Positions 4,614-22,132 of a stretch of 64,000 nt of DNA are shown one piece after another. A program made the position numbers and the translations under genes. Source of the DNA: Rhodothermales bacterium (GTDB lineage Bacteria > Bacteroidota > Rhodothermia > Rhodothermales > JANQRZ01); NCBI GenBank assembly GCA_039944855.1, contig JBDUXZ010000020.1, positions 186,001 to 250,000 of the forward strand. Reading direction: 5' to 3'. The notes below the pieces were generated by a model. It saw only the letters and a program-made list of their open reading frames with translations. It had not been told where the DNA came from and made no database searches. How positions within the stretch are numbered: the first letter of the stretch is position 1; every line of letters begins with the position of its first letter.

Positions 4614-6548
4614 ATGGCTGAAATTGATTCGTATGACGTGATCGTGGTGGGCGGTGGACATGCGGGAGCGGAAGCTGCGCACGCTGCCGGCCGAATGGGG
4701 GCCCGGACGTTGCTCATTACGATGAGCATCGAAGCGCTCGGGCGCATGTCGTGTAATCCCGCCATCGGAGGGATCGGGAAAGGGCAGATCGTCCGTGAGA
4801 TCGATGCGCTCGGCGGACTTATGGGACGCGTCACCGATCGTACGGGCATCCAGTTCCGGATGCTGAACCGGAGCAAAGGACCCGCGGTTTGGAGCCCGCG
4901 CGCTCAGAGTGACCGCACGGCCTACTCTCTCGCCGTCCGCGAGGAGTTGGAGTCTACCCCTGCGTTGCGCTTTCGTCAGGATATGGTGACCGATGTCCTC
5001 GTCGACGACGGACGCGTGACGGGCGTCAGAACGCAGACGGGGCAGACCTTCCATGCTCGCTCAGTCATTCTCACAAGCGGCACGTTTCTCAATGGGACTA
5101 TCCACATCGGTGAACGACAGCATGGGGGGGGGCGTGCAGGGGAGCGCGCCGCTACGGGTATCAGTGCGAGCCTCGAACGACTCGGTTTCGAAGTCGGCCG
5201 TTTAAAAACGGGGACACCACCACGAGTCGACGGCCGCACGATCGACTACACCGGGCTCAGTGAGCAAAAAGGGGACGATGAACTCGTCCCCTTTTCCTAC
5301 ATGACGGATCGCCTCCCGGCAGAACAGCGGTCTTGCTGGCTGACCTACACGAACCCGAAGGTCCATGAACTCCTTCGCACGGGGTTCGACCAGAGTCCCA
5401 TGTTCGCCGGTCGCATTCAGGGACAGGGCCCCCGATACTGCCCGTCGATCGAAGACAAAATTGACCGCTTCGCTGACAAGGACCAGCACCAACTCTTCCT
5501 AGAGCCTGAGGGGTTGAACACGTACGAGATTTACGTCAACGGTTTTTCTACTTCATTGCCGGAAGAGGTCCAGCTAGCTGCGCTTCGCCAGGTCGCAGGG
5601 ATGGAGCGCGTCCATATGCTTCGGCCGGGATACGCGATCGAGTACGACTATTTCCCGCCGCATCAACTCCGCTATAGCCTCGAAACGAAGCGAGTCGAAG
5701 GGTTGTTCTTTGCAGGACAGATCAACGGAACCACGGGGTACGAGGAAGCGGCAGCGCAGGGGCTGCTCGCCGGCATCAACGCCGTTCAGCGACTGCGAGA
5801 GGCCGAGCCGATTGTGTTGCAGCGCTCTCAAGCCTACATCGGCGTGCTCGTCGATGACCTGGTCGCGAAAGGCACCGATGAACCATACCGGATGTTTACT
5901 TCGCGCGCTGAACACCGCCTGCTTCTCCGCCAGGACAATGCTGATCAACGGTTGACTCCGCTCGGCTACGAGCTTGGTCTTGCTTCGGCGTCACGGAGGG
6001 ATCGACTCCAGCGCAAGCAGCAGGCTCTCGACGCTACCCTCGAAAACCTTCAAGCCACTACCGTGGCACCGCACGATGTGAACGGCTACCTGGAACACGT
6101 AGGCACGACTCCCATCGCCGAGCCCGTGCGTCTCGCGCGGCTCGTAACCCGGCCCCAGGTGCAACTTGATGCGTTGCTCCGCGCTACGGGCCACGAGACA
6201 CTCGCCCCCCCCTTCGAAAGCGCCGACTCCCTCCTCCATAGCGCCGAGACGATTTTGAAGTATGCAGGATACCTTGACCGAGAATTAGAGATGGTAGAGA
6301 AGATGCACCGAATGGAATCGTGGCGCCTTCCCTCGGATGCCATCTACGATGCCATTGACAGCATCACCCTCGAAGCACGAGAGAAGCTGAAGCGCATCCG
6401 CCCCGACACCCTCGGTCAGGCCTCACGCATCAGCGGCGTCAGTCCTGCTGACATCTCTGCGCTGATGATCTTACTCAAGAGTGGCCGACTACCCTCTCCC
6501 CCCAATTCCGTTTCACGTGAAACGCCCCGCGCGACTCCTTCGAAATGA
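4614..6548 (+). CDS. mnmG: tRNA uridine-5-carboxymethylaminomethyl modification enzyme MnmG
   Basis: A 644-residue FAD- and NADH-dependent partner of MnmE. The N-terminal dinucleotide-binding motif [11 protein letters not shown] is at residues 11-21. The conserved [12 protein letters not shown] (near 46), [20 protein letters not shown] and EYDYFPP motifs all match the GidA family. The C-terminal helical region with YAGYLDRE and ALMILLKSG mediates MnmE binding. Its stop codon overlaps the rsmG start by four bases (ATGA), indicating translational coupling. A consensus parS site lies in its last codons. Confidence 0.97.
6509..6524. promoter_or_regulatory. parS centromere-like site (ParB target)
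   Basis: CGTTTCACGTGAAACG is a perfect 16-bp palindrome carrying the parS core GTTTCACGTGAAAC, in which only the outermost pair differs from the classical TGTTTCACGTGAAACA. It lies at the end of mnmG. parA and parB are not in the window, but the whole segment is origin-proximal, as expected for parS. Confidence 0.75.
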
Positions 6549-7180
6549 GTTCATCACCTCCATTCATTACGGCCGACCAACGGCGACAACTCGAGCATCT
6601 CTCTTCTCTGGCGCAATCGCTGAACTCGAAAATCAATCTCTACTCAGCCGCGAGTGCTCGAGCCTTTTGGGGTCGGCACATCGAGCACAGCCTCACACTT
6701 GCCACTAAGTCATTCCCCCCGCAGGCCCGGGTTGTTGACTGGGGGACAGGAGGCGGAATGCCCGGATTGCCGCTAGCCATCCTTTTCCCTCAGACCAAAT
6801 TTGTGCTCGTCGACGCTGTGCGCAAGAAGATCCAAGCTGTCGAGACCATGGCACGGCGCCTAAGCCTCCAAAATGTCGAGACGTGGCACGGACGAGCAGA
6901 AGCGTGGGAGGGAAGCGCGACCCATAGTGTTTCACGTGCAACAGCGCCGCTGATAACGTTGTGGGAGTGGCACGAACGTGTTGCGACCGAGCACGCTGTC
7001 GGAAGCCTACACGTGTGGCGACCCGGATTGATCTGTTTAAAAGGTGGAGACTTACATCAGGAGATCGCCGACCTGACGAAGGTCCACGAAGGAGTAGAGA
7101 TCGTTACGACGCCACTGGCGGACACAAGGGCTCGGGACGACTTCGAGGAGAAGGTCATCGTAGAGGTTTATAGACACTAG
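6545..7180 (+). CDS. rsmG: 16S rRNA (guanine-527-N7)-methyltransferase RsmG
   Basis: A 211-residue SAM-dependent enzyme that methylates N7 of G527 in 16S rRNA. The SAM-binding glycine motif [15 protein letters not shown] is at about residues 64-78, followed by [14 protein letters not shown] and the RA(T)APL region typical of GidB. It is the last gene of the rpmH-to-rsmG run and overlaps mnmG by four bases. The familiar next genes parA and parB are not here: an outer-membrane protein gene faces it from the opposite strand 32 bases away. Confidence 0.94.
6928..6943. promoter_or_regulatory. parS centromere-like site inside rsmG
   Basis: TGTTTCACGTGCAACA matches the bacterial parS consensus TGTTNCACGTGAAACA exactly when read on the other strand, where N is G. 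It lies inside rsmG, about 400 bases from the preceding site; clustered parS sites help ParB nucleate spreading. Confidence 0.75.
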
Positions 7181-7212: not shown

Positions 7213-7866
7213 TCAACGTAGATGAACCCCTACAAACAGGACAAACGACTGATTGTAGATGCTTCTACTTTCAGATCCGCTTACCTCTCGATTTAGCACG
7301 TTACCAAGCCCCCGATTGTATCGGACTCCAACGAGACCTTCCGTTCCAGCGAGGGAGCCTGTAATATCACTCCCTAATGTGAACCCGTACTCCGGCGATC
7401 CAAACTGATCAGATTCCTGAGACCCTTGAAGCCCATCGATCACGATGCGCTCTGACAACTCGAAGCTGATCGTCGGACCCAAATAGAAGGACAGAGACGC
7501 TTGCGATGTGAATGAGAGGGTGTACTTGATGAGAACGGGCACATCGAGGTAAGTCAGTTCCAAGCGTGCGGAAACGAGATCTCCATCGCCAGGCTCGTCG
7601 GCAATGGCGACAGCGGCACGCTCCGTGGTGAAGCCCTTCTGCGCATAAAGGAGCTCGGGCTGCACCGAAAGGCTGTGACGAAGCGGGATCGTACCGAACA
7701 GGCCAGCGGCGAAACCTACGCGAGACCCGAAATCGTCTTCAGCACGAATGTCGCCACCGATGTTAGCTACGCTCAGGCCGATACGAAACCCTACCACATC
7801 CTGAGCCTCACTGACCGAGGTGAATGCTAAGAACGCGAAGCAGAACGTCAGGAAGCGGCAAATCAT
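7213..7866 (-). CDS. outer-membrane beta-barrel protein, PorT-like
   Basis: A 217-residue protein with a cleavable signal peptide (MICRFLTFCFAFLAFTSVSEAQ) followed by alternating short strands with glycine and aromatic residues: FRIGLSVANIGGD, VGFAAGLFGTIPLRHSLSVQPELLYAQKGF, LDVPVLIKYTL, FYLGPTISFEL and VGVRYNRGLGNV. This is the pattern of the small eight-stranded porin-family barrels common in Bacteroidota. The function is unknown; such barrels can be structural, adhesive or gliding/secretion related. It is convergent with rsmG and divergent from the ATP-grasp gene. Confidence 0.75.
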   Translation of the reverse strand: MICRFLTFCFAFLAFTSVSEAQDVVGFRIGLSVANIGGDIRAEDDFGSRVGFAAGLFGTIPLRHSLSVQPELLYAQKGFTTERAAVAIADEPGDGDLVSARLELTYLDVPVLIKYTLSFTSQASLSFYLGPTISFELSERIVIDGLQGSQESDQFGSPEYGFTLGSDITGSLAGTEGLVGVRYNRGLGNVLNREVSGSESRSIYNQSFVLFVGVHLR

Positions 7867-8208
7867 AGGAGAACGGGAGGCGTGCGCTTTGCGTCATCGC
7901 CAGGGAGGAAGAGGCGAGTCGCAGACGTGGCTATGTGAGAAAACAGAGCGTGAATGGTGGATGCGCGCTTGGATAGCACAAGGGTACTGGAGAAGGCCGA
8001 AACGAGTAAGTCAAAAAAACGCACCTGACTGCGTCGCCGACGGCACACACGGCTAGCAAAATGACCGGGGGTAGCGTCTCTAAGGGGAGAAACGCTGTAG
8101 GGGATTGACCGACACCGGGAGAGGGGAGCAGAGGGCGAGGCCCAAGATGCGGAGGGACTATGTTGTTTTCATAGTGGTTTCTGCCTTTCCCACCTTGCCT
8201 TGCCGACC
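7867..8208. other. intergenic region between divergent genes
   Basis: These 342 bases separate divergently transcribed genes, so both promoters should lie here. I see an imperfect hairpin at about 8073-8095 (AGCGT and ACGCT arms) and a relatively AT-rich patch at 8160-8180, but no convincing gene or RNA. Confidence 0.4.
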
Positions 8209-9801
8209 ATGCTACGGCCTCACATCTCCCTTGAGTGCCTCAACGTCGGGGTGCAAAAACTCATTACTGAGTGGCCGCGACCCGGCTCACCGTCGGAACG
8301 GCAACGATTCGCGCAGTTGCAGGAGGCGTTCCCGAAACAGTTCCAAGAGGTCTTCCCCGATCCACACAGGGCACGGACCGTCGTCGTCATCCCAAGCCTC
8401 TCGTTGCCGCCGGAGGAGTTGAAAAAGATATCTGGGGTGAATCATTACGAAGAGCGAATGCTCTTCACGCTCATGCTGCTCCGCATGCCGCGGACGCGGC
8501 TGATCTTCATCACGAGCGAGCCCATCGCCCCCGGCATCATCGACTATTACCTCCAGCTTCTCCCCGGCGTGCCGAGCGTGCATGCGCAAGAACGACTCAC
8601 CTTCTGGGCATGCCACGACGCATCGCCGATTCCGCTCGCGCAAAAAGTGCTCGACCGGCCCCGCCTGATTCAGCGGATCCGTCACGGTATCGTAGACCCC
8701 AGCGCGGCACACCTCACCTGCTTCAACGCAACGGAGAGGGAGCGAACGCTCGCTGTCCGGCTCGGCATCCCGCTATACGCCTGCGACCCCGACCTCCATC
8801 ACCTCGGAACGAAGAGTGGGAGCCGCGAGGTTTTTCGGGAAGCGGGGATCCCCTTCCCCGACGGGTTCGAAAACCTCCGAGACCTAGCCGATGTGACAGA
8901 CGCACTGACGGAATTGAAACGCCGGCACCCTGCACTCCGACGCGCGGTGGTAAAGCTGGACGAAGGGTTCAGCGGCGAGGGCAATGCCGTCTTCACGTAC
9001 GGCGACGATGCGCCAGAGGGGGCCGCGCTCCACGCGTGGGTACAGGATCGGCTCCCAGAACGGCTTCGTTTCGAGGCCGCCAGCGAAACGATAGAACGAT
9101 ACGGGAGCGCCTTCGAGGAGATGGGCGGCGTCGTGGAGCTATTCGTAGAGGGTGCCGTGAAAGCCTCCCCTTCGGCGCAGTGCCGCGTGGACCCGCTGCA
9201 CAAACCCGTCGTGATCTCGACGCACGACCAGGTTCTCGGCGGGCCGACGGGACAGGTTTTCCTCGGCTGCACCTTCCCCGCTGCCGAACCCTACAGGATG
9301 GAGGTTCAACACTATGGGTGCCGCGTTGCAGAAATTCTAGCGCGCCGAGGGGCCTTAGGACGCTTCAGTGTGGACTTTGTCTCTGTCGAGAGCCAAGAGG
9401 GATGGGACCATTACGCTATCGAGATCAATCTCCGCAAGGGAGGGACAACGCATCCCTACCTCATGTTGGAGTTTCTCACGGACGGGCACTACGATGCGGA
9501 CACCGGGTGCTTCCTCACCCTCGACGATCAACCCCGTTACTACTACGCCTCCGACAACCTCGTGAGTGAGCGCTACCGTGGGTTGATCCCGCGCGACCTC
9601 GTCGAGATCGCGGTCTACCATGGCCTCCACTTCCACGGGGCGATGCAACAGGGCGTCGTGTTCCACCTCATCGGCGCGCTCTCGGAGTTCGGGAAGCTCG
9701 GCGTGCTGTGCATCGGCGACAGCCCGGAGACGGCCCGGCGGTACTACGACGACACGGTCCGCGTGCTCGACCTGGAGACGAGCGGGAACGCCCCGCCGTA
9801 A
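8209..9801 (+). CDS. ATP-grasp protein related to the peptide ligase Pgm1
   Basis: A 530-residue protein of the ATP-grasp superfamily, enzymes that activate a carboxylate as acyl-phosphate and couple it to an amine. The N-terminal third contains LIFITSEPIAPGIIDYYLQLL and a nucleotide-binding-like segment. The ATP-grasp core has VVKLDEGFSGEGNAVF, RFSVDFV and the metal-binding segment AIEINLRKGGTTHP. The C-terminal part (GVVFHLIGALSEFGKLGV, IGDSPE) matches the C-terminal domain of Pgm1-type ligases. The ATG is preferred over an in-frame TTG nine bases upstream. It stands alone with no peptide precursor next to it, so the substrate is unknown. Confidence 0.75.
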   Translation: MLRPHISLECLNVGVQKLITEWPRPGSPSERQRFAQLQEAFPKQFQEVFPDPHRARTVVVIPSLSLPPEELKKISGVNHYEERMLFTLMLLRMPRTRLIFITSEPIAPGIIDYYLQLLPGVPSVHAQERLTFWACHDASPIPLAQKVLDRPRLIQRIRHGIVDPSAAHLTCFNATERERTLAVRLGIPLYACDPDLHHLGTKSGSREVFREAGIPFPDGFENLRDLADVTDALTELKRRHPALRRAVVKLDEGFSGEGNAVFTYGDDAPEGAALHAWVQDRLPERLRFEAASETIERYGSAFEEMGGVVELFVEGAVKASPSAQCRVDPLHKPVVISTHDQVLGGPTGQVFLGCTFPAAEPYRMEVQHYGCRVAEILARRGALGRFSVDFVSVESQEGWDHYAIEINLRKGGTTHPYLMLEFLTDGHYDADTGCFLTLDDQPRYYYASDNLVSERYRGLIPRDLVEIAVYHGLHFHGAMQQGVVFHLIGALSEFGKLGVLCIGDSPETARRYYDDTVRVLDLETSGNAPP

Positions 9802-9905
9802 TGGAAGGGATTCCCCGGCACAGGGCCGACGCGGAGGGACGATACTTTCCGTGCCCGTAGGGGATGCAGCACGCCCCACTTTCCCACCCGACTCTTCCGT
9901 TCGCT

Positions 9906-11183
9906 ATGCGCATCGTTCAGGCCGCCGAAGCCGTCTCCGTCATCAAGTCCCGCGACCGCGTCTTCATCCACACCGCGGTCGCCGCGCCGCAAAGGCTAAT
10001 CGAGGCCATGACGGCGCGCGCCTCGGAGCTCCGCAGCGTCGAGGTCGTCCACCTCCACACGGAAGGCCCCGCGCCCTACGCCGCGCCGGAGCTAGGGACG
10101 AGCTTCCGCACGCGGGCGTTCTTCATCGGGGCGAACGTGCGCGACGCAATCGCGAACGGCGAAGCCGACTACATCCCCGTCTTCCTCAGCGAGGTCCCGA
10201 ACCTGTTCAAGCACGGCATCCTCCCCCTCGACGTGGCCCTCGTGCAGGTCTCCCCGCCGGACTCCCACGGCTTCTGCACGCTCGGCGTGTCAGTGGACGC
10301 CTCCCACGAAGCCGTGAAGCAGGCCCCGCTCGTCATCGCCGAGATCAACCCGAACATGCCGCGCACGCACGGCGACGGCTTCGTGCACGTGGACGACATC
10401 GACTACGCCGTCGAGGTGGACTACCCGCTCCCCGAGCACGCCCGGCCCGAACTGTCCGACGCCGAAATCGCCATCGGCCGCCACTGCGCCGGGCTCGTCG
10501 AGGACGGCGCCACGCTGCAGATGGGCATCGGCGCGATCCCCGACGCCGTGCTCGCCGCGCTGACGAGCCACCGCGACCTCGGCATCCACACGGAGATGTT
10601 CTCCGACGGCGTGATCGACCTCGTCGAACGCGGCGTGGTGACGGGCGCGAAGAAGCGCGTGCACCCCGGCAAGCTGGTCTCCTCGTTCCTCATGGGCACG
10701 CGCAAGCTCTACGACTTCGTCGATGACAACCCGCAGGTGGTGATGCTAGGCGCGGACTACGTCAACGACACCGCCGTCATCCGCCGCAATCCGAAGGTGA
10801 CGGCCATCAACAGCGCCATCGAAGTGGATCTCACCGGGCAGGTCGTGGCCGATTCGATTGGAACGCGGATGTTCTCCGGCGTCGGTGGACAGATGGACTT
10901 CATCCGTGGCGCCTCGCTCTCGCCCGGCGGCAAGCCGATCATCGCTCTCCCCTCGACGACAAACAAGGGCCACACGCGGATCACAGCGATGCTCCACCCC
11001 GGCGGCGGCGTGGTGACGACGCGGGCGCACGTCCACTACGTCGTTACCGAGTACGGCGTGGCGAACCTCTACGGGAAGAGCCTCCGCGAGCGAGCCCGTG
11101 CGCTCATCAGCATCGCGGACCCGGCGCACCGCGAGGCGCTCGAAGAAGCTGCCATCGAGCGGTTCAAGCACCTGCCGGACTGA
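9906..11183 (+). CDS. acetyl-CoA hydrolase/transferase family protein (CoA-transferase)
   Basis: A 425-residue family I CoA-transferase resembling 4-hydroxybutyrate or acetate CoA-transferases, which move CoA between carboxylic acids through a glutamyl-CoA intermediate. Visible family motifs are MGIGAIPDAVLA near residue 207, INSAIEVDLTGQV near 300 (containing the likely catalytic glutamate), GGQMDFIRGA, and VTEYGVANLYGKS near 381. The ATG giving MRIVQAAEAV is chosen over an upstream in-frame start because homologous enzymes begin close to this segment. The acid substrate cannot be told from sequence. Confidence 0.87.
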   Translation: MRIVQAAEAVSVIKSRDRVFIHTAVAAPQRLIEAMTARASELRSVEVVHLHTEGPAPYAAPELGTSFRTRAFFIGANVRDAIANGEADYIPVFLSEVPNLFKHGILPLDVALVQVSPPDSHGFCTLGVSVDASHEAVKQAPLVIAEINPNMPRTHGDGFVHVDDIDYAVEVDYPLPEHARPELSDAEIAIGRHCAGLVEDGATLQMGIGAIPDAVLAALTSHRDLGIHTEMFSDGVIDLVERGVVTGAKKRVHPGKLVSSFLMGTRKLYDFVDDNPQVVMLGADYVNDTAVIRRNPKVTAINSAIEVDLTGQVVADSIGTRMFSGVGGQMDFIRGASLSPGGKPIIALPSTTNKGHTRITAMLHPGGGVVTTRAHVHYVVTEYGVANLYGKSLRERARALISIADPAHREALEEAAIERFKHLPD

Positions 11184-12388: not shown

Positions 12389-13888
12389 TCACGGCTCGGC
12401 GGCCGGCTCCGCCGCAGGCGGCGGGCCGACGGGCGGCCCGGCCCGGCCCGGCAGCGCCCACAGCACGAGGCCATAGGCCGCCACGCTCGCTAGCCCGATT
12501 CCGATCCGCGCAGCCGGTGCGAGATCGTTGAAAGGCAGCGCAGACCCAGCCGCGAGCACCACGCCGAGCCCAACGAGCCCGGCCACATGGGGACGATACA
12601 CCTCGCGGAGTTGCATCGGCACGCCGACGATCCGGCTGGCCTGCGTGACCTCTAAGGCGGCGAGCGCGAGGGCACCGAGCGCCGAGGCCGCCGCCGCCCC
12701 AGCCATCCCGAAACGGGGGATGAGGACGAAGTTCATCCCTACGTTCACGACGCCGATCGTGGCGCTGTTGATCAGGTTGAGCCGGGAGTGCCCCGTCATC
12801 ACGACCACGTTCCCCGCCAGCCCGAACCCGTTGATGAGGTACGGAACGGGTAGCAACCACAGCATGAACGCCACCGTCCCGTCGTAGCCGGGGTAAAAGA
12901 TGCGGAGGAGATCCGCGTGAAGCGTGGCGACGAGGAGGATGGCCGGGACGGCGAGCGTGGCGGTCCACCGCGCCGTCGAGGAGTAGACACGACCCAACGT
13001 CGCTAGATCGCCCTGCGCATAGAGCCGTGAGATCTGTGGGGCGAGCGCCCCGGAGAACGCGAGCTTGACCTGCCGGAGTTCGCGGACAACGCCCGATCCC
13101 GCCCCATACACCCCGACAGCGGCCGCGCTCGCCCCGAGCGCGCCGAGCATCAGCACGTCGATCCCGGTCAGGAATCGGTTCAGCGTCATGTTCAGATTTT
13201 GCGGGAGGGCGAACCCCAGCAGTTCGCGGTTGAGCCGGAAGCGCCGGAGCGCGCGGCCGAGCGGGCGCCATTCGAACTCTCGCCCGTAGATCCCGATCGC
13301 TGCGAGGCCGGACAGCACCTGCGACAGCACCCACGCGATCACAAGCCCCTCGACGGTCGGCAGCGTGCTGTGGATCAGGAAGGCCGCGCCGAAAAGGGTG
13401 AGCGGCTTGAGCCCGCCGGCGATGAACGCGTCGTACCGCATGATGCGGAGCCCCTGCGTAGCGGCGAGCACGACGCGCTCGAAGGCCATCAGGGGCAGCA
13501 CGAGGGCCATCACGCGCACGGCTGGTGCGAGCTCGGCCCCGAAGTCGTACGTAGCCTGGAGAGCCGGAGCCCCCAGCGCCTGCGCCCCGGCCACGATCAC
13601 GAGCGCGCCGCCCAGGCTGAAACCAAACGCGTTCGCGAGGGCGTCGTATAGCTTCTCTCGATCCTCTTCCGCGTAGCGTGCGACGTAGCGCACCGCCGCA
13701 TCGCGGAAGCCCGACGTCAGCAGCGCCACGGCGATCTCGACGAGCGCCGCCGCCGATACGTACACCCCAAACACCTCGGCCCCGTAGAGCCGTGTAACGA
13801 CGAGGAGAAACGCCGGGCCCGCGATCTTCCCCGCGATCCCGAGGAAGTTGACGAGCGCGCCCCGCTGGAGCTCCTTCTCGATGCTCAT
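12389..13888 (-). CDS. polysaccharide flippase, Wzx/MATE-like
   Basis: A 499-residue polytopic membrane protein with about 12-14 predicted helices and the typical Wzx N-terminus (GALVNFLGIAGKIAGPAFLLVVTRLYGAE). It also shows SGFRDAAVRYVARYAEED and FALPQNLNMTLNRFLTGIDVLMLG, a pattern of PST-type exporters. It would move undecaprenyl-linked glycan units across the inner membrane. It lies six bases downstream of a GT4 gene on the same strand, so the two form an operon. A proline/alanine-rich tail of about 20 residues ends the protein. Confidence 0.87.
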   Translation of the reverse strand: MSIEKELQRGALVNFLGIAGKIAGPAFLLVVTRLYGAEVFGVYVSAAALVEIAVALLTSGFRDAAVRYVARYAEEDREKLYDALANAFGFSLGGALVIVAGAQALGAPALQATYDFGAELAPAVRVMALVLPLMAFERVVLAATQGLRIMRYDAFIAGGLKPLTLFGAAFLIHSTLPTVEGLVIAWVLSQVLSGLAAIGIYGREFEWRPLGRALRRFRLNRELLGFALPQNLNMTLNRFLTGIDVLMLGALGASAAAVGVYGAGSGVVRELRQVKLAFSGALAPQISRLYAQGDLATLGRVYSSTARWTATLAVPAILLVATLHADLLRIFYPGYDGTVAFMLWLLPVPYLINGFGLAGNVVVMTGHSRLNLINSATIGVVNVGMNFVLIPRFGMAGAAAASALGALALAALEVTQASRIVGVPMQLREVYRPHVAGLVGLGVVLAAGSALPFNDLAPAARIGIGLASVAAYGLVLWALPGRAGPPVGPPPAAEPAAEP

Positions 13889-15122: not shown

Positions 15123-16310
15123 ATGAACGTCCTCGTCTGGGCCACGACCTTCGGTGCCGACCTCTGGAGCCTCGCCCGATACCTCGACCAGCGGCCCGAC
15201 TGCACCGTCCGCGTCGTCCTCGACGACCCGGCGACGTTCCGGCGCGAAGGCGTGGCGCACCTCTTCCCACTCGACCGTACGAAGCTCATCAAGCGGCGTC
15301 CGTGGCACCGATTCGTCGGGGTGCCGGGGTTCCGGCCAGACATCACGGTGATGGATAACCGCGTGCCGCTGCGTGCGCCCTCCCCCGCCGGGCTGATGCT
15401 GTGGCACGGCTTCGGCTGGCGCGGCCCGAACAACGCCGACGGGGACTTCGCATGGCTCCACCACTCCATCCGCTCGGCCTTCGGCGATGCGCGCGTTCCG
15501 AACCCGCGCTTCCGCTGGCAGTGCTTCGGGCCGTGGGATCTGGGGCACCGCACGGCCGTCAGCGGCTTCGCGCCCGAGAACTGCCGGCTCATCGGCGCCG
15601 TCAGCCATGACGACCTCCGCATCCCGCTCGACCGCGCGCTCGCGCAGCCGTTTTACCCCTTCGATCTGAAGCGCAAAACGGTCCTCCTCGCGCCGACGTG
15701 GCACTACGGCGAGGTCTTCGCCCACTGGGGCACCGACGCCGACCTCTTCGACCGTCTGCTCGCCCACCTCCACCGCCGCGAAGCGAACGTCATCCTCCGC
15801 CTCCACGACTCGTTCCGCTTCCCCCGTCCGTACCGTCGGTTTCTGGACGACCTCGCGCGGCGCTATCCGAACGTCCTCCTCAAGTTCAAAGACCGTCATC
15901 CCGACAACTTCCTCGACCTGCAGGTCGCCGACGTGCTCGTCACCAACTTCTCGTCGATCGCGAACCTGTTCTACGCCACGCTACGGCCGACCGTCCACGT
16001 CTACCCCGTCGCGAGCGCAGACGAAGCGTTCATGGAGCGGCAGTACACCGTGTTCGGCGTCCGCGAGAAGCCCGTCGAATCTGCCCGTTTCATCTGGAAG
16101 CTGCCGCCGGAGGACAACGGCGGCCTCCTCGCCCACGACTTCGACGAGATGATGACGCAGATCGACCGGGGGCTCGACGAGCCGGACTGCTGCCGCGACC
16201 GCGCGCAGGACTTCCTCGACCGGCACATGCTCGGCGCAGACGGAGGGAATGCCGAGCGCGCGTGGGCCGTGATGCAAGAGGTGGTGACCACGGCACAGGC
16301 CGCCCGGTAA
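15123..16310 (+). CDS. CDP-glycerol glycerophosphotransferase-like protein (TagB/TarF family)
   Basis: A 395-residue protein resembling the teichoic-acid polymer enzymes that transfer polyol-phosphate from a CDP-polyol. Visible features are LMLWHGFGWRG near residue 92, the VLLAPTWHYGE motif after about residue 185, VILRLHDSF, and the C-terminal DVLVTNFSSIANLFYATLRPTVHVYP, which matches the family's D-x-x-x-T-D/N-x-S-S donor-site segment. In a Gram-negative envelope locus it more likely phosphodecorates a surface glycan than builds teichoic acid. The next two genes make inositol-phosphate and probably CDP-inositol, a possible donor. Confidence 0.72.
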   Translation: MNVLVWATTFGADLWSLARYLDQRPDCTVRVVLDDPATFRREGVAHLFPLDRTKLIKRRPWHRFVGVPGFRPDITVMDNRVPLRAPSPAGLMLWHGFGWRGPNNADGDFAWLHHSIRSAFGDARVPNPRFRWQCFGPWDLGHRTAVSGFAPENCRLIGAVSHDDLRIPLDRALAQPFYPFDLKRKTVLLAPTWHYGEVFAHWGTDADLFDRLLAHLHRREANVILRLHDSFRFPRPYRRFLDDLARRYPNVLLKFKDRHPDNFLDLQVADVLVTNFSSIANLFYATLRPTVHVYPVASADEAFMERQYTVFGVREKPVESARFIWKLPPEDNGGLLAHDFDEMMTQIDRGLDEPDCCRDRAQDFLDRHMLGADGGNAERAWAVMQEVVTTAQAAR

Positions 16311-16371
16311 GCGACGTCGTGAGGATGGGCTGAATTGCACACGCGGCGGGATACCCCTTTCGCGACACCGG

Positions 16372-16379
16372 TATATTCG
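16372..16379 (+). promoter_or_regulatory. candidate promoter element (TATATTCG) of the inositol-phosphate operon
   Basis: TATATTCG lies about 43 bases before the chosen GTG start of the synthase gene and fits the TAnnTT element seen before many genes here. Its position argues against the in-frame TTG further upstream being the start. Confidence 0.4.
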
Positions 16380-16421
16380 GCCGATTTACCCCACGGCATT
16401 CTCTCTCCAACCGCTGCCTCC

Positions 16422-17753
16422 GTGCCCAACACCCTCCCCGCCCACGACGGCAAACTCCTCGTCCTCCTCCCCGGAATGGGCGCCGTCGCCACCACGTTCA
16501 TCGCCGGCGTCGAAGCCGTGCGGCGTGGCACCGCGCAGCCCTTCGGCTCGCTCTCGCAGATGCAGACGATCCGCCTCGGCAAGCGCTCCGAGAACCGGAA
16601 CCCGCTCATCCGCGACTTCCTCCCCCTCGCCCCGCTCGACGACCTCGTCTTCGCTGGGTGGGACCCGATCCCGGACGACGTGTACGACGCCGCCGTGCGC
16701 GCCGGCGTGCTCGACGACCGCGACCTCGCCGAGATGGCGGACTTCCTCCACGGCATCGAGCCGATGACCGCGGCGTTCGACCAGCAGTACGTCAAGCGGC
16801 TCGACGGTACGCACGTCAAGCAGGGCGAGACGAAGTGGGACCTCGCCGAGCAGCTCCGCGCCGACATCCGGGCGAAGAAAGAGGAGACCGGTGCCACGCG
16901 CGCCGTGATGGTGTGGTGCGGCTCGACGGAGGTCTACCTCTCCCCCGCTCCCTGCCACATGAGCCCCGAGGCCTTCGAGCAGGGCATGAAGGACAACGAC
17001 CCGGCGATCGCGCCGAGCCAGCTCTACGCCTACGCCGCGATCATGGAGGACGTGCCGTACGCGAACGGCGCCCCCAACCTTTCGGCCGATTTCCCCGCGC
17101 TCGAACAGCTCGCGGAGCAGCGCGGCGTGCCGATCACGGGCAAGGACTTCAAGACCGGGCAGACGATGATGAAGACGATCCTCGCCCCCGGCCTCAAAGC
17201 CCGCATGCTCGGCGTCAACGGCTGGTTCTCGACCAACATCCTCGGCAACCGCGATGGCGAAATCCTCGACGACGTGGACTCGTTCCGCTCCAAAGAGGTC
17301 ACGAAGGCCGGCGTGCTCGACACCATCTTCCAGCCCGAAACCTACCCCTCGCTCTACGGCGACCTCTACCACAAAGTCCGCATCAACTACTACCCGCCGC
17401 ACGGCGACGCGAAGGAGGGCTGGGACAACATCGACATCTTCGGCTGGCTCGGCTACAAGATGCAGATCAAGGTCAACTTCCTCTGCCGCGACTCGATCCT
17501 CGCCGCGCCGATCGTGCTCGACCTCGCGCTCTTCCTCGACCTCGCGGGTCGCGCCGGCCGCTCGGGCATCCAAGAGTGGCTCTCGTTCTACTTCAAGAGC
17601 CCGCACACGCCCTCCGGCCACGTGCAGGAGCACGACCTCTTCATCCAGCACTTCCGGCTGAAGAACACGCTCCGCGTGATGGGCGGCGAAGAGCCGATCA
17701 CCCACCTCTCCGAGCACTTCGAGGAGCACACCGAGATTGAGGAAGCAGAGTGA
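16422..17753 (+). CDS. ino1: inositol-3-phosphate synthase
   Basis: A 443-residue NAD-dependent enzyme that converts glucose-6-phosphate to inositol-phosphate, the only de novo route to inositol. The dinucleotide-binding GMGAVATTFIAGV is near residue 17. The conserved VMVWCGSTEVY, KDFKTGQTMMKT, NGWFSTNILGNRDG and YYPPHGDAKEGWDNID segments mark the myo-inositol-phosphate synthase family. The GTG giving VPNTLPAHDG is preferred because the longer frame would start upstream of the promoter-like TATATTCG. The stop overlaps the next start by four bases, so the synthase and cytidylyltransferase are translationally coupled. Confidence 0.93.
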   Translation: MPNTLPAHDGKLLVLLPGMGAVATTFIAGVEAVRRGTAQPFGSLSQMQTIRLGKRSENRNPLIRDFLPLAPLDDLVFAGWDPIPDDVYDAAVRAGVLDDRDLAEMADFLHGIEPMTAAFDQQYVKRLDGTHVKQGETKWDLAEQLRADIRAKKEETGATRAVMVWCGSTEVYLSPAPCHMSPEAFEQGMKDNDPAIAPSQLYAYAAIMEDVPYANGAPNLSADFPALEQLAEQRGVPITGKDFKTGQTMMKTILAPGLKARMLGVNGWFSTNILGNRDGEILDDVDSFRSKEVTKAGVLDTIFQPETYPSLYGDLYHKVRINYYPPHGDAKEGWDNIDIFGWLGYKMQIKVNFLCRDSILAAPIVLDLALFLDLAGRAGRSGIQEWLSFYFKSPHTPSGHVQEHDLFIQHFRLKNTLRVMGGEEPITHLSEHFEEHTEIEEAE

Positions 17754-18490
17754 CGGCCGGAGCGGGACGCACCGCCGTCGTCCTCGCCGCGGGCTTCGGC
17801 TCGCGGCTGGCGGGGACGAGCGATGCGACAGCACTCAAGCCGCTGACGCCCGTCGCCGGCGTCCCGCTCCTGCTCCGTACGTTCCGCAGCCTCGAAGCCG
17901 CGGGCTGCGACCGGATCGTCGTCGTCGTCGGGCACGGGGCAGACGAGGTGCGGGAGGCCGCCGAGTCCGTGTATGAAGGCGGCGCCGACGTGCGCTTCGT
18001 CGTCAACGAGCGCTACGACCTCGCAAATGGCGTCTCCGTCCTCGCCGCGCGTGACGAGGTGGACGGAGACTTCCTCCTCACGATGGCCGACCACGTCTTC
18101 AGCGACGACGTGATGCGGCTCGCGGGGGCGCACACGCCGCCCGCGCACGGCGCGACCCTCCTCGTGGACTACGACATCGCCGGCGTCTTCGACCTCGACG
18201 ACGCGACGAAGGTGCGCGAACGAGACGGCCACATCATCTCCATCGGCAAGCAGATCACCGACTACAACTGCATCGACACCGGTCTCTTCGTTTGCTCCCC
18301 CGCGCTGATGACCGCACTCGCCGAGGTTTACGCCGAGCGCGGCGACGCCTCGCTCTCCGACGGGATCCAGCGTTTCGCCGCTGCCGGCCGGATGAGCGTA
18401 CTCGACATCGGCGACGGCTTCTGGCAGGATGTGGACACCCCCGAGATGCTCGCCGAGGCAGAACGTCGACTCCGTGCGGTCGAGGGGTAG
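17750..18490 (+). CDS. inositol-1-phosphate cytidylyltransferase-like nucleotidyltransferase
   Basis: A 246-residue nucleotidyltransferase. The signature AVVLAAGFGSRLAG at residues 9-22 is followed by KPLTPVAGVPLLLRTFRSLEAAG, VVVVGHGADEV, NERYDLANGVSVL and LLTMADHVFS, closely resembling the cytidylyltransferase domain that makes CDP-inositol. The coupled inositol-phosphate synthase supports this substrate. It lacks the membrane CDP-alcohol phosphotransferase domain fused to it in di-inositol-phosphate producers. In Rhodothermus marinus CDP-inositol is known to donate the head group of inositol phospholipids, so the same role is likely here, though other sugar-phosphate substrates remain possible. 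Confidence 0.75.
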   Translation: MTAGAGRTAVVLAAGFGSRLAGTSDATALKPLTPVAGVPLLLRTFRSLEAAGCDRIVVVVGHGADEVREAAESVYEGGADVRFVVNERYDLANGVSVLAARDEVDGDFLLTMADHVFSDDVMRLAGAHTPPAHGATLLVDYDIAGVFDLDDATKVRERDGHIISIGKQITDYNCIDTGLFVCSPALMTALAEVYAERGDASLSDGIQRFAAAGRMSVLDIGDGFWQDVDTPEMLAEAERRLRAVEG

Positions 18491-19645: not shown

Positions 19646-22132
19646 TCAAGGAGTCGTTGCTGGCTCAACCGCCTCACGATCTTCCATCCACTGCAGCAAG
19701 GCCGGGAGGAAGAGGAGCGCGGCGAGGAGCGTCGCGCCGATCCCGATGAGGGCGAGGAGTCCGATCGAGCGGAGGCCGGGGTGGAACGAGAGCAGGAGGC
19801 CGGAGAACCCGATCATCGTCGTGAGCGCTCCCATCGTGACATGCTCGCCGGTGGAGCGGAGGACGTAGCGGAGCGAGCCCGGCCCCTCCTCCCGATAACG
19901 GTGGACGAGGTGCACCCCGCAGTCGTTGCCGATGCCGAGCACGGCCGGGAGCACGACGAGGTTGTAGAACGTGAGGGAGACGCCGGCTAGTACCATCAGC
20001 CCGAGCATCCAGAGGACGCCGACGACGAGCGGCACGAGCGCGAGGAGCGCCCACTTGACGGAGCGGAAGACGAGGAACATGAGCAGCGCGATCAGTGCAA
20101 AGGTGATGCCGACCATCAGCGGCGCCTCGGCGAGCATCAGCCGCAGCATCTCTGCCGCGACGATCGACGTCGACCCGGCGTAGTACGTCTCTCCCTCCAC
20201 CTCCACGACGCCGACCTCGTCGGAGAAGGCCATCGAGAGGCGGGCGTCTTCGGAGAGCGAGCCGCGCGGGTACACGATGACGAAGTTGCCGACCTCGCCC
20301 GACTTCGACGTGAACGTCTGCTTGAGTTCGTCGGGTACGTCGGCGAGGGCAATCGGCGCGGTCGTGCTCGCGGCGCGGCGGACGCGAGCGATCTCGCCGG
20401 TCGTGTCCGCCGCGAGGAACGGGTCGTCCGTGAGTTCGCGGATCTCGGCGATCCAGTCGAGCTTGGCGCGGGCGGCCTCCGGCGTCGTCGGAAACCGCTC
20501 CTGCAGGCTCTCGACGGCGAGGATCAGCGTGTCCTCGCCGGCCCGGCGCCGCAGTTCCACGACGAGCGGCTCCACGTCGGACGCGTCGTCCACGACGATG
20601 TACGCCGGGTTGCGACGGTTGCTCGACGGGTAGACGCCGGAGAGCCGGTCGGCGCGGTCGTAGTAGTCGCGGTACTCGGGCTCCAAACTGCTGAAGTTGT
20701 ACTCGAACCGCTCCTGCGGCAGCGCGAAGAGCGACAGCACGACGGCGACGAGGCTCGCGGCGAGGATCGTCCGCGCGGCCGGGAACGGCCGCGGATCGGC
20801 CGCCACGACGGGCTCGTCGTCGTGCGCTTCGAGGCGGAGCAGCCCGAACCGCTCGCTGAGGATGAGGAGCGCCGGGAGGACGAGCAGCATCGCGAAGAGG
20901 GCGAACACGATCCCGAGGCCGCCGATGAACCCGAACTCGCTGAAGCCACGGAAGTCAGCGATCGTGAGCGCGAAGAGGGCGATCGCCGTCGTCGCGGCGC
21001 TGACGGCGACGGCCTGCCCGGTCGAGACGAACGTCATTTCGGCGGCGTCGGCGGGGCTCAGCCCGTGCCCGCGCTCTTCCGTATAGCGCGCGTAGAAGTG
21101 GATGCCGTAGTCGATTCCGAGCCCGAAGAGGACGAGCGCGAGTGTCGACGTCATCAGGTTCAGCGCGCCGAACACGGCGCCCGCGATCCCGAACGTCCAC
21201 GCCAGACTCATCAGGAGGGGGATGCCGATGAGCCCCGCCGTCACCGGCAGCCGGGCGAGTTCGCTGAGTACGACGCGCCGCGTCCGTCCGCGAACCTGGA
21301 GCGCTTTGTACAGGAAGTAGAGCACGACGAAGAGCAGCACGGCGGCGGCACCGAGCCCGAAGCTGCTCTGCACGTCGTTCGTGATCGCCTCGATTTCGAT
21401 CTGCTGCCGGAGGAGGCGGCCGGCCGTCGTGACCTCCATCTGCGGATCGAACTGCGCGGGCTGCACCGCTGCCACGAGCGAGTCGAGCTGCCGGTACGTG
21501 TCGCGAATGAAGCCGATGTTGGTCTGCGCGCCGCTCGGATAGAACCGGAGGGCGAGCACGGTCGAGTCGGGCGAGACGGCATACTCGCGCGGCTGCAGGT
21601 CGCGGAGGCCTTCCAACCCTCCCGCGTCCGACTCCTCTTCGTCGAGCCCGAGGTCGTCGTCGAGGTCGACGAAGAACGGATTGGCTTCGAGCCGCGCCTC
21701 CTCGGCCGTGTCTTCGAGGAAATACTGGAGCTGGTCCAATTCCTCGTCGGAGGCGAAATAGAGCGCGTTCTGCGCGAGGAATGTCGTGTCCTTCCGAAAG
21801 TCGACGCGGGTGAAGACGGGCTCGCCGCGCCACTGAAGGGCAAGGGCCTGCGGGATTAGCGCCTCGGCGAAGCGCTTGTTCGCCGCGAACGACGGGCTTT
21901 CGATGGCGACGTCGACGGGCGTTTCCGAGCCGACGGTGGCGCGGAGCCGCTCGAGCGCCTGCACGCTCACGTAGTCGTCGGGCAGCAGGTTCGCGAGGTC
22001 CGTGTCGATCTTCAGCCGCGTCGCGGACACGAGCCCGAGCGCGGCGAGCACGAGCGCGACGGCGACGACGGCGAACGGGCTCCGCACGATCGCGTGGATG
22101 AGGGGGCGGAGGGACTCGAAAAGACGTTCCAC
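19646..22132 (-). CDS. RND-superfamily exporter, MMPL/HpnN-like
   Basis: An 828-residue polytopic transporter with the two-fold RND layout: an N-terminal helix, a large extracytoplasmic loop (about residues 35-240), a block of about five helices including LFGLGIDYGIHFYARYTEERG, a second loop, and a second block with GIGNDCGVHLVHRYREEG. Those GxxxD-x-G-x-H segments are the conserved family D motifs. Such proteins export lipids or hydrophobic compounds (mycolate precursors, hopanoids). The start is a GTG. It lies upstream of the lipocalin-like secreted protein, which could bind an exported lipid. Confidence 0.88.
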   Translation of the reverse strand: MERLFESLRPLIHAIVRSPFAVVAVALVLAALGLVSATRLKIDTDLANLLPDDYVSVQALERLRATVGSETPVDVAIESPSFAANKRFAEALIPQALALQWRGEPVFTRVDFRKDTTFLAQNALYFASDEELDQLQYFLEDTAEEARLEANPFFVDLDDDLGLDEEESDAGGLEGLRDLQPREYAVSPDSTVLALRFYPSGAQTNIGFIRDTYRQLDSLVAAVQPAQFDPQMEVTTAGRLLRQQIEIEAITNDVQSSFGLGAAAVLLFVVLYFLYKALQVRGRTRRVVLSELARLPVTAGLIGIPLLMSLAWTFGIAGAVFGALNLMTSTLALVLFGLGIDYGIHFYARYTEERGHGLSPADAAEMTFVSTGQAVAVSAATTAIALFALTIADFRGFSEFGFIGGLGIVFALFAMLLVLPALLILSERFGLLRLEAHDDEPVVAADPRPFPAARTILAASLVAVVLSLFALPQERFEYNFSSLEPEYRDYYDRADRLSGVYPSSNRRNPAYIVVDDASDVEPLVVELRRRAGEDTLILAVESLQERFPTTPEAARAKLDWIAEIRELTDDPFLAADTTGEIARVRRAASTTAPIALADVPDELKQTFTSKSGEVGNFVIVYPRGSLSEDARLSMAFSDEVGVVEVEGETYYAGSTSIVAAEMLRLMLAEAPLMVGITFALIALLMFLVFRSVKWALLALVPLVVGVLWMLGLMVLAGVSLTFYNLVVLPAVLGIGNDCGVHLVHRYREEGPGSLRYVLRSTGEHVTMGALTTMIGFSGLLLSFHPGLRSIGLLALIGIGATLLAALLFLPALLQWMEDREAVEPATTP

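Follow-up and report, generated by a model that had tools for sequence, protein, structure and literature searches.

The gene described here raises the question of what an ATP-grasp ligase joins, and under which circumstances, when it is related to peptide ligases but stands apart from any recognisable peptide partner. It lies in a 64,000-nucleotide stretch of DNA from a Rhodothermales bacterium (contig JBDUXZ010000020.1, positions 186,001 to 250,000), referred to below as the window. The initial annotation had presented it as a solitary Pgm1-like ligase whose substrate might be a housekeeping or envelope molecule. The gene and its parts are as follows, in window coordinates.

8209..9801, plus strand: the ligase ORF, with ATG start, 530 amino acids and stop; ATP-grasp carboxylate-amine ligase of the BesA branch
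8797..9456, plus strand: ATP-grasp core, about residues 197-416 (best stretch to Pfam PF24923, 197-261; the far limit at about residue 416 is our choice)
9595..9750, plus strand: PGM1_C domain (Pfam PF18105), residues 463-514
9652-9705, plus strand: C-terminal motif GVVFHLIGALSEFGKLGV, residues 482-499, inside PGM1_C

The ORF is intact over its 530 residues and includes the PGM1_C tail. A TTG at 8200, three codons upstream of the ATG, is an alternative start, and most relatives align to the protein only from about residue 22 onward. The presence of an ATP-grasp core and of the C-terminal motif was confirmed, with scores of 66.6 bits for ATP-grasp_IQCH (PF24923; cut-off 27) and 52.7 bits for PGM1_C (cut-off 22.5). 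Both families were matched by all 24 rows of an alignment of close relatives that includes the ligase and has a mean identity per column of 65%, and for these reasons we do not regard the gene as a chance ORF. PreAtp-grasp (PF18604) scored 17.3 bits in the ligase, with a cut-off of 27.5, and matched 10 of the 24 rows at E<=0.01, while ATP-grasp_3 matched 15 (best E 1.2e-6). The ligase is the sole match in its own genome (4.6 Mb, 41 contigs), and it very probably joins an acid and an amine using ATP.

Seven residues (K202, K249, E310, D389, E405, N407 and R409) were invariant in all 28 rows of a wider alignment, which added four distant rows to the 24 close ones, one of the four being a Streptomyces cattleyicolor sequence that reads as BesA. 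The residues HDQ at 339-341 were likewise identical in 28/28. We take the seven residues to be the ATP- and magnesium-binding positions of ATP-grasp enzymes. Immediately after R409, residues 410-414 are KGGTT in every close row and KVGPS in BesA; the RKGGTT of the 24 orthologues is nearly always followed by HP, where BesA has RKVGPSHV. The natural reading of these sequences is that the gene encodes a working ligase that would have a substrate pocket of its own. The C-terminal motif had been called diagnostic, and as a mark of peptide ligation we could not uphold it. Residues 482-499 are well conserved across an orthologue group that lacks a peptide partner, and BesA differs within them at four positions (F485 to L, S492 to N, K496 to F and G498 to E). 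The motif thus marks the family and not peptide ligation.

Comparison with characterised proteins placed the ligase on one branch of this family. A phmmer search against solved structures returned BesA (8yi6, E 2.1e-41) and no other convincing match. A profile of the 28 rows also reached PGM1 (E 1.2e-4), but because those rows held BesA and three distant sequences the profile was rebuilt from the 24 close rows, without BesA. The rebuilt profile found BesA at E 1.5e-57 and did not find PGM1 at E<=1; the four other matches listed were short, to POB3-type chains, and were taken for chance. In NCBIfam the sole match was the BesA equivalog NF042917, at 151.5 bits far below its cut-off of 750, which places the ligase outside that equivalog. 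An AlphaFold2 model of middling quality, built from four sequences (mean pLDDT 65.6, pTM 0.67, weakest at residues 242-319), gave the same order: Foldseek and VIA-align both placed BesA first, the latter with Z 31.4 over 392 residues at rmsd 4.0. PGM1 followed at Z 24.5 (366 residues, 14% identity) and the structure 8ynd at 24.3, with the next family, PurK, at 18.3. The ligase therefore belongs to the known PGM1/BesA ATP-grasp family and, as judged by sequence and predicted fold, is nearer to BesA than to PGM1. The label "Pgm1-like" fits the fold family but misplaces the nearest branch.

BesA is the L-propargylglycine--L-glutamate ligase of Streptomyces cattleyicolor (PDB 8yi6; NCBIfam NF042917). 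It is homologous to the ligase over nearly the full length, at about 27-32% identity, and besides being the best match by sequence and fold it has the same invariant residues. It differs in the RKGGTTHP and GKLG blocks and in that the ligase group is spread more widely, and the scanned genes of the window, set against the make-up of the bes cluster, included no recognisable further bes gene. The low identity, the score of 151.5 against 750 bits and the RKVGPSHV in place of the RKGGTT block mean that the glutamate of BesA is not transferable to the ligase. PGM1, the pheganomycin peptide ligase (PDB 3wvq, 3wvr), shares the fold and the PGM1_C domain but is remote in sequence, and no precursor peptide was found beside the ligase. 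The direction of chemistry given in the initial annotation, an amino acid-like nucleophile added to a ribosomal peptide, has to be reversed: in the passages of PMC8359417 that describe it (see also PMC8939145), PGM1 acylates the peptide, joining the N-terminus of the precursor to substituted acetic acids.

Three further relatives deserve mention. The structure 8ynd, a Streptomyces ATP-grasp peptide ligase, shares the fold. A Robbsia andropogonis protein with the database name "Peptide ligase PGM1-related protein" (WP_320534214.1) is of the same family at 29.6% identity; its gene has neighbours of biosynthetic type (SIS-domain, SDR, aldehyde dehydrogenase and amidinotransferase genes), whereas no such set recurs in the group of the window ligase. 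The third is the ATP-grasp domain of IQCH, as PF24923 was matched by all 24 rows with a best E of 1.2e-26. This Pfam family is named for IQCH, a eukaryotic protein, and the likeness here is one to the Pfam model alone; the ligase is possibly a bacterial relative of that protein. Among the papers listed by literature searches there was none combining IQCH and ATP-grasp, none combining 8YND and ATP-grasp and none on this ligase group, and BesA does not occur in the consulted text of PMC12123629.

The genes around the ligase in the window are the following.

6545..7180, plus strand: rsmG (Pfam GidB), the end of an mnmE-mnmG-rsmG block
7213..7866, minus strand: outer-membrane beta-barrel gene (Pfam OMP_b-brl_2), between rsmG and the ligase
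9864..11183, plus strand: acetyl-CoA hydrolase/CoA-transferase (Pfam, NCBIfam), 62 nt downstream of the ligase
12389-13888, minus strand: polysaccharide flippase-type gene, downstream of the ligase
19646-22132, minus strand: MMPL protein gene, downstream of the ligase

The statement that no transporter is nearby holds in part: the flippase-type and MMPL genes do lie downstream, but we saw no sign that either belongs with the ligase. No sigma-70-type promoter was predicted in 7850-9900 by a model that may not suit this phylum. An FNR-like box with one mismatch was present at 10797, inside the downstream gene, and as a single site in the window it is within chance (1.68 expected) and was set aside. 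Farther along (15123-18490), genes for a CDP-glycerol-type transferase, a myo-inositol-1-phosphate synthase and a nucleotidyltransferase stand in a row and perhaps form an inositol-lipid or inositol-polymer pathway. ARAGORN reported a tRNA-Ala (cgc) at 20332-20411, which is absent from the Rfam results, lies opposite the MMPL gene with which it overlaps, and is probably false.

We compared these surroundings with those of homologues, 69 loci in all. Four of them are distant (30-41% identity), some two dozen are 42-47% identical, and one genome (G464) supplied two. The window's neighbours, four genes on each side, were unmatched at the other loci, at 25 of which a separate comparison gave the same result; this includes the CoA-transferase. 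No gene family travels generally with the ligase. The commonest one in the whole fetched stretches (mean 380 amino acids) occurred at 14 loci in scattered positions. Others recurred less often: a dihydroorotate-dehydrogenase-like gene at 7 loci, genes for a universal stress protein (Usp) and a LuxR-type response regulator at 6 each, CcoI, pyruvate:ferredoxin oxidoreductase and a glucose/sorbosone dehydrogenase-like protein at 5 each, glycine dehydrogenase and MsrA at 4 each, and BipA and gamma-glutamyltranspeptidase at 3 each. A shared operon was rejected, since none recurs, and no shared biosynthetic cluster was found among the 69 loci.

The same loci were searched for a short partner gene. 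Among 553 intergenic ORFs (18-110 amino acids, within 3 kb, 65 of the 69 loci, with a filter for sequence complexity), four families were shared between ligases less than 85% identical, and these were one zinc-ribbon gene (Zn_ribbon_8) and frames overlapping it, all in one group of four loci. The mask for this test was every called ORF of at least 120 amino acids, some of them probably spurious, and the test was therefore repeated with the mask restricted to the ligase and to those genes for which another locus has a homologue. Among the resulting 2385 ORFs (15-110 amino acids, 68 of the 69 loci) the same four families appeared together with one weak pair (L056, L104). An earlier, looser test took in 1643 ORFs of 20-110 amino acids within 1.2 kb at the 69 loci; among the matches listed, inspection by eye showed what looked like stretches of low complexity or alternative frames of conserved genes, together with the zinc-ribbon gene in four loci, L148 included. 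Very short ORFs can hardly reach the E-value used, and both main tests begin at 15 amino acids or above. In the range of 15-110 amino acids no precursor-like ORF recurs at these neighbourhoods, and a RiPP partner was rejected. In the related genomes of the zinc-ribbon group (L143, L144, L146, L148), that gene is conserved on the opposite strand just upstream of the ligase, with an S9 peptidase nearby and, in three of them, a transglutaminase-like gene.

These results support the description of a solitary ligase with no precursor peptide (none among the ORFs of 18-110 or 15-110 amino acids) and no RiPP-type partner beside it or its relatives at the 69 loci; beyond the one small group, neither a conserved short ORF nor a cluster accompanies the homologues. 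That the ligase has no genomic context at all was true of most homologue loci but not of part of its own order, where it lies in a setting of cbb3 oxidase and Usp genes.

In that order the ligase was found in 20 of 114 genomes, its own included, the others being 52-69% identical, and a PGM1_C search of 113 order genomes returned the same 20 and no paralogue. As the other 94 genomes, some of them incomplete, gave no match, "housekeeping" is too strong a word for its substrate. Of 395 genomes drawn from the phylum, 9 contained the ligase, 7 of them from the same order. The phylum is probably Bacteroidota by sequence comparison also, since one of its genomes (L047) has a block of genes up to 82% identical to that of a Chitinophagaceae MAG (L024). 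Named relatives come from MAGs titled Acidimicrobiia, Bacteroidetes, Deltaproteobacteria and Chitinophagaceae, in which misplaced contigs are possible, and a Gemmatirosa homologue is 59.7% identical. For the Acidimicrobiia MAG, matches at E<=0.001 occurred in 32 of 138 genomes of its order and in 51 of 396 drawn from its phylum; some were 57-65% identical, more were 34-48%, and a few were fragments. The genome of this MAG (G464) holds two ligases, L102 and L152, 44% and 60% identical to that of the window and in separate clades. Phage records gave no ligase match, and no viral contig with a ligase was confirmed. In a quick tree of 69 rows, whose outgroup rows are long-branched and of unsure placement, the grouping mostly followed lineage: 17 of the order's 20 members fell together (SH-aLRT 93), and three of one family (f14) grouped with other members of the phylum.

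The tree also defined the window protein's own clade, which it shares with four loci (L027, L028, L029 and L038; SH-aLRT 99). In these four, and in L037 from one further family, the ligase lies in or beside an island of cbb3, FixG and CcoI genes (Cco and Fix names were assigned by us from Pfam domains), and the island loci carry Usp, PPK2 or CHAD genes. Their gene orders are as follows.

L027: CcoN, a 242-aa gene, CcoP, FixG, Usp, ligase, CHAD, Na/Pi transporter, PPK2, PPK2, CcoI
L028: FixG, Usp, ligase, Usp, CcoI
L038: FixG, ligase, CcoI
L029: ligase, CHAD, Na/Pi, PPK2, PPK2, CcoI (the contig ends before any cbb3 gene)
L037: ligase, three Usp, three other genes, cbb3 genes

The called ligase ORF of L027 overlaps both neighbours by 4 nt. 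A Usp gene also adjoins the ligase in L030, L031 and L032, and 12 of the 20 order loci, the window's among them, are without a cbb3 or Usp context, a rough count as contigs end near the gene.

The same island occurs in the window's genome, on another contig (C37; L153, 2861-16000), with the PPK2 pair and Usp and with identities of 86% for CcoN, 64% for FixG, 71% for Na/Pi and 61% for CcoI, and the 16 kb read there gave no significant ligase or CHAD match. The mnmG locus was sought in eight genomes; one (G044) had no mnmG match and one (G045) a match outside the remaining set of six (L162-L167). In all six, rsmG follows mnmG, and in five a beta-barrel match comes next, but neither the ligase nor the window's CoA-transferase was found after mnmG-rsmG in the stretch read, which is short in L164 and L167. 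Three of these relatives (G032, G042, G046) carry the ligase elsewhere, in the island; in the other three (G033, G047, G048) no ligase was found. Because its own island is without it and relatives lack it after mnmG-rsmG, the window ligase seems to have moved. The simplest account would be that in the lineage of the window it left the island for the mnmG locus, a direction suggested by four loci versus one in the clade.

How strong is the association with stress and low oxygen? Usp matches number 258 in the 20 ligase genomes, and a Usp lies within 3 kb of the ligase in 6 of the 20, where 0.47 would be expected at random with each match counted separately. As the six loci are related and fall in two clades, this is an excess and not a clean test with a valid p-value. 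PPK2 was somewhat commoner in ligase genomes of the order (18/20 versus 59/93 others; Fisher 0.03, nominal, with kinship ignored and three families tried), the two without a match being G030 and G046. In other lineages, other oxygen-related genes recur, pyruvate:ferredoxin oxidoreductase at 5 loci and a dihydroorotate-dehydrogenase-like gene at 7, a hint noted post hoc. The ligase may thus be loosely tied to stress or low-oxygen physiology.

We consider it somewhat better than an even chance that the gene encodes an ATP-grasp ligase of the BesA branch that carries out a one-gene, small-molecule amide step, with a product perhaps made for low-oxygen or stress conditions. In such a step the enzyme would bind ATP-Mg and phosphorylate a small acid at its carboxylate to form an acyl-phosphate; the acid may be an amino acid, for example glutamate. 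Attack by an amine, probably a second amino acid or some small amine, would then give a soluble amide, with ADP and phosphate as the other products. The ligase would act on metabolites already in the cell and not within a gene cluster. Glutamate as the acid is a guess by analogy with BesA. The weakest step is the last, that the amide would serve under low-oxygen, energy-poor or stress conditions, which is proposed because of the cbb3 oxidase, Usp and PPK2/CHAD context in part of the order. A broader proposal, that the solitary BesA-branch ligases of this phylum, the actinobacterial lineage and Gemmatimonadota all make one small amide for low-oxygen or energy-stress physiology, is tentative and on balance doubtful.

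The bond formed by BesA is a gamma bond. It is possible, if rather unlikely, that the ligase is a gamma-glutamyl ligase whose amide, used for storage, detoxification or redox purposes, is later opened by gamma-glutamyltranspeptidase (gamma-GT). BesA, the closest relative of characterised function, is named as a ligase of L-glutamate, and a gamma-GT gene is next downstream of the ligase in L040 and L042. The same holds in the genome of L039 (G094), with gamma-GT at C197:3052-4590 and the ligase at C197:1283-2794, and in L136, from another phylum, gamma-GT is two genes away. These are only 4 of 69 loci, however, three of them from one family (f13). The gamma-GT gene is near-universal in the order (105/113 genomes; 17/20 with the ligase and 88/93 others) and was unmatched in three ligase-bearing genomes (G021, G025, G030), two of which are 97-98% complete. 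GCS2, the usual family of the gamma-glutamyl-ligase type, was rarer in ligase genomes of the order (11/20 versus 77/93 others; Fisher 0.014, nominal, with kinship ignored, three families tried and many matches weak), which would agree with a gamma-glutamyl product, but three GCS2 matches are present in the genome of the window itself.

A RiPP-type peptide ligase like PGM1, with its precursor encoded elsewhere or too short to find, is improbable. The fold shared with PGM1 and 8ynd (Z 24.5 and 24.3) and the PGM1_C tail speak for it, while the orthologue profile misses PGM1 and the neighbourhoods share neither a biosynthetic cluster nor, beyond the zinc-ribbon group, a short ORF.

Ribosomal protein S6 is modified by the ATP-grasp enzyme RimK, and on this precedent the ligase could add an amino acid to a protein, possibly the Usp that adjoins it at six loci and whose ORF overlaps it in L027. 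We think this highly improbable, given that 63 of the 69 loci lack a Usp of this cluster and the names of the closest fold matches refer to substrates that are small molecules or peptides. Almost certainly wrong is a role in the window's envelope-polysaccharide region, decorating a sugar with an amide: glycosyltransferases and the flippase-type gene start 1.4 kb downstream, but these genes are unmatched in sequence at the other loci compared, the ligase seems to have moved here, and the suggested envelope substrate is thereby left without comparative support.

BesA and PGM1, the named members that we met, come from natural-product pathways, and a widely kept lone ligase with an intact active site would offer a direct handle on an undescribed metabolite. 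The growth conditions in which to look for it are indicated by the cbb3, Usp and PPK2 context in part of the order. The Pfam link to IQCH, if confirmed, could open the way to studying a eukaryotic domain in a simple bacterial system. If the one-amide reading is true, these ligases would represent a part of stress or primary metabolism that is run by the type of enzyme whose named examples met here, BesA and PGM1, serve natural-product pathways.
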